Source of the DNA: Microcaldota archaeon
GTDB taxonomy: Archaea; Micrarchaeota; Micrarchaeia; Micrarchaeales; CABMGC01
Direction: 5' to 3'
NCBI GenBank assembly: GCA_027366155.1
Contig: DAHXKV010000021.1
Location: forward strand, 1-33,594
Length of the DNA stretch: 33,594 bases
Below the pieces are notes generated by a model. It had not been told where the DNA came from, did not search any database, and was given only the letters and a program-made list of their open reading frames with translations. The position numbers and the translations under genes are program-made. Positions 21,798-29,615 of the stretch are shown one piece after another (the stretch's first letter is position 1; the number at the start of each line of letters is the position of its first letter).

Positions 21798-23018
21798 TCA
21801 CCCGGTAACTATACCTATCCCGGAGAACTCCTTTCCTGAATAAAATACGAATCTTCCTATCTCGGGAGTCCTCTCGAACAAATCCACTGCAACCTTCTCC
21901 TCGAGTATCAACTCCACATGGCCAGCATTCAGCGGCTTTATTCTGTCAGAAGGAACGCACTCTCCTGTACTGACGTCTACTTCGTCCTTCACCGAAACCT
22001 TCCTGCACCTCACCCGAATCCCATTTATCCTTATGGAGGCATCCTTGTTAAGACCCGTTGTATTGAGGAGCAGCGCGTTTATCTTACTGGAAGAGACACA
22101 AGCCGTATCAGAATCAGAAGCGACGGAGCCCTTGATGTCTGGCCCGACTGGTGAATCCAGCTCAAGGGTTACCACATCGCCCCTCCCTGCTATTTTCTTG
22201 CTCCTTCCGCTGACTAAGAGCCCCGCAACCTTTGCCCGTTTCCCAGAAGGAAAGATTGTTATCCTGCTCCCCCTGGTCAAGCTTCCAGAGACGACCCTTC
22301 CGAATACGGCTGTATTACTGTCTTCCGAAACCCCCTGGATCTGTATTATGGTGTTTCTGCCTGTAGGGCGTGCTGCGAGTCTAGCCACACCTGCAAGGAC
22401 CTCAATTAGGCATCTTCCTCTGTACCATCCCATTGCCTTTGATGGCCTGACTAGGTTCTCTGCGTTGTATGCAGATATGGGCACAAACCTGACATTCTCG
22501 CTAGGGAACCCTATCCTGGCAAGATACCTGCCTACCCCGTCAGAGACCTCCTCAAAAGCCTCCCGGCTGTATCCTACGGCATCAAGCTTGTTTACGGCGA
22601 CAACAAGCTTGCGTATACCAAGCATCTTTGCAACAAACAGGTGCCTCTTTGTCTGGCTTGTTATCCCTTCCCCCTGCTTAACTGAGACAAGAAGCAATGC
22701 AAAATCTGCATACGAGGCACCGCTCAGCATGTTCTTGATTAGTTCCTCATGGCCAGGAACGTCGATGAACTCAAAGCCTGCCTCCTTGTATCTAACCTGG
22801 GCACGCGTTGTGTCAATAGTCATCTCATTGAGCCGTTCTTCCTCAAAACTGTCGAGTATGTATCCGGGCTCAAATCTCCTCCCAAGCTTCCTGCTCGTCC
22901 TCTTAGCATCATCTATCCTCTGCTCAGAGACAGATCCGGTCTCGATAAGCAGGCTGCCTATCAACGTTGACTTGCCATGATCTTTGTTTCCCAGCACTGT
23001 TACCCTGTTCACTATCAC
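21798..23018 (-). CDS. Translation-factor-type GTPase, CysN-like (sulfate adenylyltransferase large subunit family)
   Basis: G1 'GNKDHGKST', G3 'DVPGHEELIKNM', 'RHLFVAKMLGIRKLVVAVNKLD' (CysN-like G4 context); adjacent to cysD-like gene. Confidence 0.75.
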   Translation of the reverse strand: MIVNRVTVLGNKDHGKSTLIGSLLIETGSVSEQRIDDAKRTSRKLGRRFEPGYILDSFEEERLNEMTIDTTRAQVRYKEAGFEFIDVPGHEELIKNMLSGASYADFALLLVSVKQGEGITSQTKRHLFVAKMLGIRKLVVAVNKLDAVGYSREAFEEVSDGVGRYLARIGFPSENVRFVPISAYNAENLVRPSKAMGWYRGRCLIEVLAGVARLAARPTGRNTIIQIQGVSEDSNTAVFGRVVSGSLTRGSRITIFPSGKRAKVAGLLVSGRSKKIAGRGDVVTLELDSPVGPDIKGSVASDSDTACVSSSKINALLLNTTGLNKDASIRINGIRVRCRKVSVKDEVDVSTGECVPSDRIKPLNAGHVELILEEKVAVDLFERTPEIGRFVFYSGKEFSGIGIVTG

Positions 23019-23022
23019 AGAA

Positions 23023-23823
23023 TCACATATATCCTAGCGCTCTGAGCTTCTCCATGACAAACGCCTTTTCCTTGTCCTGGTCCCTGCCCTGCCTCTCCTC
23101 TATCTTGGTCTTCTCGAGTTCTCTTATTATGTGGTTTATGTCGGCTGCGCCAGACTTTACTGGCGTTGTGCAGTGGGTGCACCCCAGGCTTCTATACCTG
23201 TATCCGTCCCTTGAGAAGTAAAGCGGATTCATCGGCACTTTCTCCCTCTTTATGTAGTTCCAGATATCTACCTCATTCCAGTCCAGGAGAGGATGAACTC
23301 TCACATGGCCGTCAGCTTCCTTCTCCGAAGAGTAATCTCCCCAAATCTCGGCCACCTGGTTTTTGTAATTCCACTTGAAGTTCTTGTCCCTGGGGCTGAA
23401 AACCCTTTCCTTGGCCCGTATTCCGTGTTCGTCCCTCCGTATTGAAACTATGAGTGCATCGAATCCGTATCTATCAAGCACCTTCCTGAGGGCGACCGTT
23501 TTATTTGCTCCGCAGCAAGCAAACCCAGACATCTCCGGCTTTATCTCACTCTTTTCGACTATTAAGTCCAGGTTCCATTTCTTCGCAAGCCTTTCCCTGA
23601 ACTCGTACGTTTCAGGAAAGTCAATCCCATTGTCTATATGTATCACGGGAAAAGGGACCTTCCCGTGGAATGCCTGCCTTGCCAGTGCCAGCATAGTAGT
23701 GCTGTCTTTCCCCATGCTCCAGAGGGCAGCGACCTTCTTGAAATTGGATTTCGCCTCCCTCATCACGTATATGCTTCTCTCTTCAAGCTTATTCAGGTCC
23801 TGCTTTATCATCCTATCATCCAT
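23023..23823 (-). CDS. CysD-like sulfate adenylyltransferase small subunit / PAPS-reductase-family PP-loop protein
   Basis: 'ESIYVMREAKSNFKKVAALWSMGKDSTTMLALARQAFHGKVPFPVIHIDNG', 'IRRDEHGIRAKERVFSPRD', 'WNEVDIWNYIKREKVPMNPLYF'. Confidence 0.85.
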   Translation of the reverse strand: MDDRMIKQDLNKLEERSIYVMREAKSNFKKVAALWSMGKDSTTMLALARQAFHGKVPFPVIHIDNGIDFPETYEFRERLAKKWNLDLIVEKSEIKPEMSGFACCGANKTVALRKVLDRYGFDALIVSIRRDEHGIRAKERVFSPRDKNFKWNYKNQVAEIWGDYSSEKEADGHVRVHPLLDWNEVDIWNYIKREKVPMNPLYFSRDGYRYRSLGCTHCTTPVKSGAADINHIIRELEKTKIEERQGRDQDKEKAFVMEKLRALGYM

Positions 23824-24696: not shown

Positions 24697-26394
24697 ATGA
24701 AGATTCTCCAGCTCGATGTAGACAACATAACATACACTCCAGTAAAGCCAGAGGCCAGGCTTTATGATGAGGTTGAGCGCAAGGAAGTGTCAATCAACGA
24801 CGTGCTTGTAGTAATGGTATCCGTAGAGAAAGGAGATACAAACGAGATTGCCGCAAAGGCCCTATCCGACATAAGCAGTTTTCTGGAGAAGCTTAAACGC
24901 AAAAAGCTTCTCATATACCCATACGCGCACCTGAGCAACAGCCTTGCGTCCCCTGAAGAGGCGTTGGGCATAATCAATTACATGACCAGCAACGCACCTC
25001 AGGGCATCGAAACGCTACGCGGGCCCTTCGGCTGGAACAAGAAGCTCAAACTTGATATAAAAGGCCATCCTCTTGCTGAGCAGTCCCGGTCATACAGCCA
25101 AAGCGGCAGCGGTGCTCAAGAGATCAAGAAGGCGAAGCCTGCAAGCGTCAATACTTCCATAGTCAAAAAGAGTAGCTGGGCAGGCCTTCCCGAGACCGAC
25201 CATAGGACAATAGGCGAGAAGCTAGACTTGTACAGTTTTCAGGAGGTTTCGCCATCCATGGTCTACTGGCATCCAAAAGGCTTTGTAATATTCAATGAGC
25301 TTATCCGGTTTATACGCGAAAAACAGGAAAAATACGGCTACAAGGAAATAAGTACGCCAATAATAGCAAACACCGCACTATGGCATGTCAGCGGCCACAT
25401 ATCCCATTACAAAGAAAACATGTTTGTCTTTGATACTGAACTGGGAGAACTAGGCCTAAAGCCTATGAACTGCCCTTCCTCCATACTTATCTACAAATCA
25501 CGGAAGTGGAGCTACAAGGACCTTCCATTCAAGACTGCAATATTTGACAAGCTATACCGGAAGGAAGTCTCGGGCGCGCTTACAGGCCTTTTCAGGGTAC
25601 AGGAGATGACGCAGAACGATGGCCACATATTTCTCACCGAAGAACGGCTTGAAGCTGAAATATCTGAAGTAATAAGACTTGTGAAGGAAACATATGATAC
25701 GTTCAAGATGCGTTTTGTTGCGAACATCTCAACTATGCCCGATAACCATATGGGCTCCGAAGAAACATGGGAGAAGGCCACCGGCTCGTTGAAAAGGGCG
25801 ATGGAGTCAAATGGCATAGACTACAGGGTAAAGGAAAAAGACGGCGCATTTTACGGACCTAAAATAGACTTTGATGTCATAGATGCAATGGGGAGATCCT
25901 GGACTTTTTCCACTATACAGGTCGACTACCAGCAACCTCTCCAGTTCAAGCTCGAGTACGTCGCAGAAGATGGAAAAGAGCGAACCCCGATAATGGTTCA
26001 CAGGGCAATCCTCGGCTCTCTGGAACGCACAATAGCTGTATTGGTAGAGCATTACCAGGGCAAGTTCCCGACATGGCTCTCTCCGGTCCAGGTGCGCATA
26101 ATCTCGGTATCAGAGCACACGAGCAGATATGCACAGGAGATATACGCAAAGATGTCAGGTACACGGATAAGGGCAGAACTTGAAACTAGCGACAAGACAA
26201 TGCAGAACAAACTCCGCGAAGCGATATTGGAAAAAGTGCCATACATAGTAATCCTCGGCCAGAAAGAGAGCGAGTCAGGCACCATAACCGTAAGGAGCAG
26301 ATCCGGCAACCAGAAGAGCCTCATCAAGGCAGAAGACTTTATCTCGCAGATATCCGCAGAGATAGAATCAAGGTCAAACGAGTTGATGTACTGA
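24697..26394 (+). CDS. thrS: Threonyl-tRNA synthetase, archaeal type
   Basis: Archaeal N-terminal editing domain 'MKILQLDVDNITYTPVKPEA'; class II motifs 'PMNCPSSILIYKSRKWSYKDLP', 'RVQEMTQNDGHIF', 'MVHRAILGSLERTIAVLVEHYQGKFPTWLSPVQV'. Confidence 0.95.
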   Translation: MKILQLDVDNITYTPVKPEARLYDEVERKEVSINDVLVVMVSVEKGDTNEIAAKALSDISSFLEKLKRKKLLIYPYAHLSNSLASPEEALGIINYMTSNAPQGIETLRGPFGWNKKLKLDIKGHPLAEQSRSYSQSGSGAQEIKKAKPASVNTSIVKKSSWAGLPETDHRTIGEKLDLYSFQEVSPSMVYWHPKGFVIFNELIRFIREKQEKYGYKEISTPIIANTALWHVSGHISHYKENMFVFDTELGELGLKPMNCPSSILIYKSRKWSYKDLPFKTAIFDKLYRKEVSGALTGLFRVQEMTQNDGHIFLTEERLEAEISEVIRLVKETYDTFKMRFVANISTMPDNHMGSEETWEKATGSLKRAMESNGIDYRVKEKDGAFYGPKIDFDVIDAMGRSWTFSTIQVDYQQPLQFKLEYVAEDGKERTPIMVHRAILGSLERTIAVLVEHYQGKFPTWLSPVQVRIISVSEHTSRYAQEIYAKMSGTRIRAELETSDKTMQNKLREAILEKVPYIVILGQKESESGTITVRSRSGNQKSLIKAEDFISQISAEIESRSNELMY

Positions 26395-26435
26395 ACCCCG
26401 CAAAAGGCAGTCCAACGCGTGGAACCTATATACTA

Positions 26436-27074
26436 ATGGACAATAGGGAAAGAAATCTGGAAATAGAAGAAATGCTGTCCAGGTTAGGGATAGAGGTAAG
26501 AAACGCCCAGCTCCCTGTTGGCGATTACATCGTGTCTAAAAGGATGTGCATCGAGAGGAAGGCAGGCAAAGATTTCGAGAGCTCGATAATGGATTCCAGG
26601 CTCTTCGAACAGGCACACAGAATGGCCGAAGCTTTTGAAAGGAGGTTGTTTATAGTAGAAAACAACCACGCTGATCCGGCACTAAGCAGGCACGTGCTAC
26701 TTGGTGCAATCCTAAAACTCTACTCCGAATATGGTACACAAGTGCTTTTTTCAGAAGGCCCCGAGGAAACTGCCTACATTGTGGGAAGACTTGCAGAGAG
26801 GGAACAACAGGAAATGGCTAACGAGCCTCTTGTTATGGGGAGAAAGAAGGCCTATTCAAGAGCACAATGGCAGTTGTTCACCTTGGGTACGATTCCTGGA
26901 ATAGGCCCTGTCCTCTCAAGGAATCTGCTTCTGACGTTCAAGACCCTCCGCAATATAGCAAACCTGGAAATTACAGACCTCACTGTTGTGGAGAAAATAG
27001 GCAGGAAAAAGGCTGAAAACATATACTCGATAATGAACTCGGAGTATAGCGAAGAGGTTAATGCGAATCGGTGA
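26436..27074 (+). CDS. ERCC4/XPF-Mus81-type nuclease with C-terminal HhH
   Basis: 'DNRERN...LPVGDYIVSKRMCIERKAGKDFESSIMDSRLFEQ'; HhH 'IPGIGPVLSRNLL'. Confidence 0.88.
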   Translation: MDNRERNLEIEEMLSRLGIEVRNAQLPVGDYIVSKRMCIERKAGKDFESSIMDSRLFEQAHRMAEAFERRLFIVENNHADPALSRHVLLGAILKLYSEYGTQVLFSEGPEETAYIVGRLAEREQQEMANEPLVMGRKKAYSRAQWQLFTLGTIPGIGPVLSRNLLLTFKTLRNIANLEITDLTVVEKIGRKKAENIYSIMNSEYSEEVNANR

Positions 27075-27990
27075 ACTGGCTTCCTGCCACCTCTGCCGCA
27101 GTTTCTGTATCAAATCGTATCTCAATCTCCTTGAGCAGCTTTACTCTGTTTAATTTAGCAAAGTTCTCCACAGCCTCCCTGCTATTCCCTATTATGATGA
27201 AATCCTTTCCGCCCTTTGCGCCTGCCCTCTCCATGGCTTTGCTTATCTGCATTGTACCTGCAACAAAAAGGAGAACTTCTACTGAAAAGGAGTTGCTGCG
27301 CATCGCACCCTCCTCCATCCTCAACAATGCACTTAATATTGACGGGCCAATCCTTCCAACAATCTTCTTGCTGTAATCCAGAAGTATTATCGTGGCATTA
27401 CTGTCTGGAATTCCTTTAGATGCCTCAATTAGCCTTTCAATTGGTTGCTCTGCCGAAGAACGAAAAGCTACGTACCCTACATTATCTAAGCTCGAGGAGC
27501 GATGCGAAATCCTGCGGTACTCACTTCCCCCAAGCACATAAGCCTTTCTTCCTTCAGGAATCCTTTTTGTGAAGAGTTCCTTCGGGAGGTCTCCGATAGG
27601 CGTCTCTCTGAAACCCAGGTTCAAGAGAAGATTAACCCCCCGTTCAGTATTCTTCTTTATGGCAACTATAGTGCCACCGGGATTCTCGGAAAAATACTTC
27701 TCCACAAGAACTCTTGTTATTTCAGAGCCTATTCCCTGCCCTCTGAATCCCTCATCAACTACTGCAGACCTTAATTCTCCCCATCCGGAATTTTTCCAGA
27801 CATGTATGGCCTCATGCGCAATTATTCTGTCACTGTAGCCTATCACCGAGTTGCCTTTAGATACCCAGTCCAGAACTTCTGCCTTGGTGACCTCCAATAC
27901 TGCCCCGCTAATCCGTGATTCGGCATTTACTAGGCCCACTATGTCCTCCGAATGACTCTTTTCTGCCTTTCCTATCTTTACCTTATGCAT
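27058..27990 (-). CDS. GNAT N-acetyltransferase domain fused to a Cgi121-like (KEOPS) domain
   Basis: N-term 'LRSAVVDEGFRGQGIGSEITRVLVEKYF...NLGFRE'; C-term 'ALLRMEEGAMRSNSFSVEVLLFVAGTMQISKAMERAGAKGGKDFIIIGNS' matches the Cgi121/TPRKB core. Confidence 0.75.
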   Translation of the reverse strand: MHKVKIGKAEKSHSEDIVGLVNAESRISGAVLEVTKAEVLDWVSKGNSVIGYSDRIIAHEAIHVWKNSGWGELRSAVVDEGFRGQGIGSEITRVLVEKYFSENPGGTIVAIKKNTERGVNLLLNLGFRETPIGDLPKELFTKRIPEGRKAYVLGGSEYRRISHRSSSLDNVGYVAFRSSAEQPIERLIEASKGIPDSNATIILLDYSKKIVGRIGPSILSALLRMEEGAMRSNSFSVEVLLFVAGTMQISKAMERAGAKGGKDFIIIGNSREAVENFAKLNRVKLLKEIEIRFDTETAAEVAGSQFTDSH

Positions 27991-29000: not shown

Positions 29001-29027
29001 TAAATGTCTAAGCGCCTTCATACTACC

Positions 29028-29615
29028 ATGTCAATTGCAAACATTGTCCGGCTGTACATATCAAACAAGCCCTTTCTAAGGGAGGCGATAGAAAGCGGCG
29101 TGATAAACCAGAGCGCCTTATCCAGATCTATACAGCGATCCCTGGGCATTAAGGACTACTATGCAGTCAAGGCAGCAGTCAGGCGCCACTGCAATGCCCT
29201 CGGAAAAAACAAGCTTAACATAGAAAAGAGGGCTCTCTCTGTCTTAAAAGGGAACAAACTGACATTGGCAAACAAGATATCGGTGATTGTAACTGAGAGG
29301 GACATAGACTCTGACTTTATTGCAAAGATAAGAATAGGCAACCAGTACACCTACCTTCTGGATTCAGAGAAGCAACTTTCAAAACAGACATATGCAAAAA
29401 CGCAGCGCATCTATAGGAATTGCTCCGCAATAACAATACACTCTGGCGAAGATGTGGAAAATGTTTCTGGAGTAATGGCCTTTGTCACGTCTTTGTTTGC
29501 CGAGTATGAAATAAACATAATCGAGCTTATCTCGTGCTATACCGAAAACGTCCTTGTAGTAAGAGAGGAGGATGCAATGAAGGGCTACAGCCTCCTCTCC
29601 GAGCTTGTCAGGTAG
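29028..29615 (+). CDS. ACT-domain regulator (COG2150-like) with N-terminal HTH-like region
   Basis: C-term 'VSGVMAFVTSLFAEYEINIIELISCYTENVLVVREEDAMKGYSLLSEL' (ACT); ATG 29028 chosen because the TATA-like element overlaps the earlier ATG at 29004. Confidence 0.75.
   Translation: MSIANIVRLYISNKPFLREAIESGVINQSALSRSIQRSLGIKDYYAVKAAVRRHCNALGKNKLNIEKRALSVLKGNKLTLANKISVIVTERDIDSDFIAKIRIGNQYTYLLDSEKQLSKQTYAKTQRIYRNCSAITIHSGEDVENVSGVMAFVTSLFAEYEINIIELISCYTENVLVVREEDAMKGYSLLSELVR

Follow-up and report, generated by a model that had tools for sequence, protein, structure and literature searches.

Two genes appear to share one polypeptide at 27058-27990 on the reverse strand of contig DAHXKV010000021.1, where the initial annotation saw a GNAT acetyltransferase running without a break into Cgi121, and the question that this locus raises is whether the genes have merged in the cell and, if they have, whether the two domains act together. 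The contig belongs to a Micrarchaeota assembly of 778 kb (78% complete), and the window referred to below is the whole 33.6-kb stretch of DNA that was analysed, in which no tRNA or Rfam RNA was found. On inspection, the frame ran from ATG to stop through 310 codons with zero internal stops, as had been claimed. The codon-usage score in this frame was positive over both halves (+0.29 bits per codon for one and +0.26 for the other). A frameshift artefact within either the GNAT or the Cgi121 half was rejected, because neither is truncated and a single frame is preferred by the coding score. The features of the locus are collected in Table 1.

Table 1. Features of the GNAT-Cgi121 locus and its neighbours, in window coordinates.
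Feature	Position	Strand	Basis
thrS with archaeal editing domain, in a conserved thrS-xpf-cgi121 block	24697..26394	+	Profiles, synteny
xpf-like nuclease, convergent; its last 17 bases are shared with the end of the fused ORF	26436..27074	+	Profile matches
Fused ORF: GNAT (ArgA/NAGS-like), linker, Cgi121	27058..27990	-	Open frame, Pfam and NCBIfam matches
Cgi121 domain, about residues 165-310	27061..27498	-	NF011465, PDB profile, fold search, pocket residues
Linker (about residues 155-164), at the place of the sisters' intergenic spacer	27499..27528	-	Coding score, pLDDT, spacer comparison
G5 run at the junction	27527..27531	-	Sequence
GNAT domain, residues 1-154; final strand RKAYVL, same endpoint as sister GNATs	27529..27990	-	PF00583, alignment, model
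In-frame GTG, codon 152, with AAGG 5 nt upstream; candidate internal start for free Cgi121	27535..27537	-	Sequence only
Acetyl-CoA pyrophosphate loop RGQGIG, residues 83-88	27727..27744	-	Sequence and family alignment
ArgB-like amino-acid kinase, 300 aa	28010..28912	-	PF00696 2.9e-19; TIGR00761 argB 125 bits (cut-off 151)
Divergent gene with C-terminal ACT domain; its place next to the GNAT cluster is conserved in the genus	29004..29615	+	PF13840, synteny

The C-terminal half scored 45.5 bits against the NCBIfam model NF011465, "KEOPS complex subunit Cgi121" (cut-off 40), and 19.5 bits against PF08617, which is under the cut-off of 25. Because PF08617 also leaves several unfused Cgi121 proteins of this family below its cut-off or unmatched, we attribute the low score to divergence of the lineage and not to decay of the fused copy. 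The PDB profile matches of this half were all to Cgi121/TPRKB, the best at 4.7e-10. Structures were predicted one half at a time, from alignments of that half's relatives; the AlphaFold model of the Cgi121 half reached a pLDDT of 88.7, and 20/20 of its confident Foldseek matches were Cgi121/TPRKB (prob 1.00, TM 0.45-0.58 by query length). The pocket that holds the tRNA CCA in Methanocaldococcus jannaschii Cgi121 comprises F21, Q28, K56, M60, Q71, I72, I76, and G80 (PMC7718258). Three of these positions are identical in the fused protein (Q248, I249, and G257 for Q71, I72, and G80, respectively), two are conservatively changed (M60 to V237 and I76 to M253), K56 is replaced by N233 where the sister species have Lys or Arg, and the alignment is unreliable at the equivalents of F21 and Q28. 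The fused domain has its fold, core motif, and pocket residues Q71, I72, and G80 in common with the archaeal Cgi121 proteins MJ0187 (M. jannaschii) and PF0523 (Pyrococcus furiosus) but is highly divergent from them (under the Pfam cut-off), carries Asn for K56, and is fused at its N terminus. On these comparisons, it would probably be a functional Cgi121 in which one CCA contact is altered. Besides this fused copy, no cgi121 was found in the 78%-complete assembly. Neither of the outcomes that the initial annotation had named as refuting its reading, a C-terminal half without PF08617 similarity or a separate intact cgi121 beside a degenerate fused copy, was thus observed. Kae1 (221 bits) and Bud32 (170 bits) are encoded next to each other on contig 42 of the same genome. 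Pcc1, which is small and weakly matched, did not turn up in the incomplete assembly and was seen in 3/4 of the sister genomes.

The N-terminal half matched the GNAT family PF00583 with 26.5 bits (cut-off 20.7). Its acetyl-CoA loop, R83-G-Q-G-I-G88, agrees with the R/QxxGxG/A signature, and in the family alignment R83 is invariant and G86 nearly so. The closest sister GNATs are 40-50% identical to it, and its model (pLDDT 93.0) shows a complete GNAT fold, so that profiles and predicted structures agree with the domains first proposed for both halves. The top structural neighbours were Mycobacterium tuberculosis Rv2747 (ArgA) and, in second place, the N-acetylglutamate synthase (NAGS) of Neisseria gonorrhoeae; many further GNATs rank close behind these two, and the ranking by itself is suggestive of a NAGS type without deciding the matter. 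The model PRK07757 was matched by 16/16 of the GNAT relatives, many of which also match NAGS models. The curated NAGS models stayed below cut-off for the GNAT half itself (25.3 versus 154 bits for PRK07757 and 18.7 versus 180 bits for PRK07922), and we therefore call it NAGS-like rather than NAGS. What it shares with the short ArgA/NAGS GNATs (Rv2747 and the GNAT domain of the N. gonorrhoeae NAGS) is that these are its best structural neighbours and that an ArgB-like kinase gene adjoins it; it differs from them in being only 15-19% identical, in being fused to Cgi121, and in having an activity that is predicted only. Within the genome examined, no second copy of this sister-locus GNAT was found. 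In several genomes of the family, the NAGS-like GNAT is present in two to four copies, some with an altered acetyl-CoA loop (for example, FRGQNIN in genome G005).

The gene context of the GNAT is of an arginine type, with the ArgB-like kinase adjacent to it and argG or argH near its relatives. Together with the argG and argH genes close to it in genomes G002 and G028, this context most likely places the GNAT half in amino-acid metabolism, probably that of arginine. The stop codon of the kinase gene is 19 nt upstream of the start of the fused ORF, and from this spacing the two are likely to form one operon. By inspection, the kinase keeps lysine, glycine, arginine, asparagine/aspartate, and second lysine motifs, which are known from N-acetylglutamate kinases. 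No comparable match was found in the sister genomes of the genus, where the position is taken in G002-G004 by a second GNAT together with a gene resembling M20 deacylases/peptidases, and in G005 by the second GNAT only; the kinase gene was possibly acquired. The search of the genus recovered no argC, no argB that passed its cut-off, and no complete arginine pathway.

Three further observations concern the rest of the window. The thrS-xpf-cgi121 neighbourhood (24697-27074) recurs at L037, L043, and further loci of the family, and several of its genera keep it; threonine is a substrate of t6A synthesis. A near-identical tandem gene pair at 149-1006 and 1229-2074 encodes a pilin-like N terminus (AMEYLMTYGWAILII). 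An EF-Tu-like GTPase lies beside a protein with a PAPS-reductase domain at 21798-23823, resembling a CysN/CysD pair, and the same arrangement occurs in G005 (L032 7693-8998).

The locus was compared across five other genomes of the genus, four of which (G002-G005) keep it, the fifth lacking it. GNAT and cgi121 are adjacent, co-directional, and separate in 4/4 of these genomes, each time between the divergent ACT-domain gene and the convergent xpf and thrS. The relative frames of the two genes differ in G002, G003, and G004; in G005 they share a frame, with four stops between them. A 341-aa frame that the search had returned for G005 was accordingly rejected as a second fusion on the evidence of its translation. 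The cgi121 genes of G002 (L033 3181-3615, reverse strand) and G004 (L034 5258-5698, forward strand) have no in-frame ATG, GTG, or TTG before the conserved N-terminal strand; a CTG with AGGTG 5 nt upstream is the likely start in both, and G003 (L035) has a CTG at the same alignment position. Joining the two genes would do away with a weak start of this kind. Elsewhere in the family, cgi121 is found near xpf (and thrS), and the GNAT occurs apart from it with ACT, M20, argG, or argH (G014, G028); in G026, the two are 2 kb apart in opposite orientation. The pairing was thus seen in one genus only and the fusion in one genome only, which makes the former a rearrangement at the level of the genus and the latter an event within a species. 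The wider searches also gave no second GNAT-Cgi121 protein. Of the 301 genomes of the phylum that were searched, 151 gave a Cgi121 match, and apart from the fused ORF none of the matches listed lay in a frame of more than 257 aa; a search of the genome contig collection with the fused protein found no other fusion; and a thrS search of that collection returned Micrarchaeota relatives with neither GNAT nor cgi121 in any of the loci checked.

The junction between the halves differs from both of them. The codon-usage score is negative across residues 151-172, and the Cgi121-half model falls below pLDDT 50 at residues 151-155 and 160-166. Sister GNATs stop 1-3 residues past the strand RRAFKLE or its equivalent, whereas in the fused protein RKAYVL is followed by about 10 residues that lead into Cgi121. 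Between fixed flanking points, the stretch measures 78 nt in the fused gene versus 93 nt in G002 and G003, and the relative frames differ. The linker, with its negative coding score against the positive scores of the halves, thus looks like translated former spacer. Addition of one base at the G5 run would make the GNAT end in ...VLGGK-stop (TGA at 27521-27523) and would place an ATG (27537-27539), with a purine-rich Shine-Dalgarno-like site before it, in frame with cgi121. This combination of stop and start is expected by chance in about 4% of simulated random linkers, which is only mild evidence, as the simulation was devised after the pattern had been noticed in the sequence. A recent indel, or an indel of the assembly, is the likely origin of the joined frame.

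We favour, with a probability of roughly 0.68, a lineage-specific and probably recent event in which two neighbouring genes of the same orientation were fused head to tail in a single Micrarchaeota species, with each half keeping its role. The GNAT stop codon would have been lost through a small indel in the spacer, and the former intergenic DNA would now encode a short, unstructured linker that joins the domains. The GNAT half would be a small ArgA/NAGS-type enzyme that N-acetylates an amino acid, probably glutamate, and feeds the ArgB-like kinase; the Cgi121 half, as the sole recognised copy, would still dock on Bud32 and hold the 3' CCA end of tRNA for t6A synthesis by KEOPS. Each half most likely works as its unfused relatives do, and the tether need not bring any new activity. 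Points against this reading are that the fusion, and with it any estimate of its age and fixation, comes from a single genome, that Asn replaces K56, that Pcc1 did not turn up, and that the NAGS-like assignment draws on structure and context, with no argC or above-cut-off argB in the genus.

It is conceivable, if doubtful, that the gene has a dual output, in which free Cgi121 is made from the GTG at codon 152 alongside the fused protein. A start codon and an AAGG are both in place for this, but they amount to a sequence motif in the single genome that carries the fusion. Such an output is compatible with the fusion that we favour and does not exclude it.

Somewhat unlikely, in our estimate, is an assembly or sequencing indel behind the joined frame, the genes being separate and slightly overlapping in the cell, with the GNAT ending at its restored stop, cgi121 starting at ATG 27539, and one base missing at or near the G5 run. 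The sister-like GNAT C terminus and the well-placed ATG that one extra base restores argue for such an error, as do the separate genes of every sister genome that keeps the locus. On the other side, the other long ORFs of the window show no sign of broken frames, which points to a low error rate, and a run of five bases is short for a consensus error; moreover, whether the single base was lost from the genome itself or only from the assembly, the trace would be identical.

A functional coupling of the two halves, whether by acetylation of KEOPS subunits, tRNA, or a nascent chain or by regulation of t6A synthesis through Cgi121 according to the amino-acid ligand state of the GNAT, could draw on the physical tether, on the gene adjacency in four sister genomes, and on the recurring bacterial linkage of GNATs with t6A synthesis, where rimI clusters with tsa genes and is fused to tsaB (PMC4926160), but it is very improbable given that the GNAT is NAGS-like and sits in an arginine-gene cluster, that no such pair with cgi121 was found in the family's other genera, and that the fusion is confined to one genome. 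Equally far-fetched, in our view, is a bifunctional protein in which a NAGS-like domain that senses amino acids or uses acetyl-CoA is combined with the tRNA-recruiting subunit of KEOPS, such that t6A tracks the supply of arginine, glutamate, or acetyl-CoA or KEOPS is acetylated in cis. The acetylation of KEOPS or tRNA offered in the initial annotation is unsupported because the GNAT, NAGS-like by structure and family, belongs to an arginine-type cluster. Its alternative proposal, a coupling of acetyl-amino-acid metabolism to KEOPS, holds insofar as the fusion joins the two physically; nothing in this analysis indicates that they are coupled in function, and a joint GNAT-Cgi121 function is a bare possibility.

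Fusions of both kinds of partner have precedents. Cgi121 is fused to a ubiquitin-like domain (Ubl) in Thaumarchaea, reportedly in all thaumarchaeal genomes then available (PMC2948915), and RimI is fused to TsaB in Bordetella and Mycobacterium leprae (PMC4926160). The former resembles the micrarchaeal case in that an archaeal Cgi121 shares its polypeptide with a second domain, but that domain is ubiquitin-like and the fusion phylum-wide, whereas here the partner is a GNAT and the fusion is in a single genome. The latter likewise merges neighbouring genes and joins a GNAT to one of the accessory subunits for t6A synthesis, but the subunit is the bacterial TsaB and RimI is a protein N-alpha-acetyltransferase that, unlike the micrarchaeal GNAT half, is not NAGS-like. 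TsaB is, to our knowledge, unrelated to Cgi121. In agreement with what was first supposed, no Cgi121-acetyltransferase (GNAT) fusion was found described in the literature searched. GNAT-Cgi121 is a new combination of partners, in a setting where Cgi121 fusions and GNAT-t6A gene fusions are already known.

Should the joined frame prove to be an assembly slip, it would be a caution against inferring function from fusions seen in a single genome. If the fusion that we favour is real in the cell, it would add a new partner of Cgi121 and mean that this subunit tolerates an N-terminal domain of ~17 kDa, which bears on the arrangement of KEOPS. It would also be a clean case of a merger between gene neighbours in an archaeon with a small genome, whose sister species still have the genes unfused.
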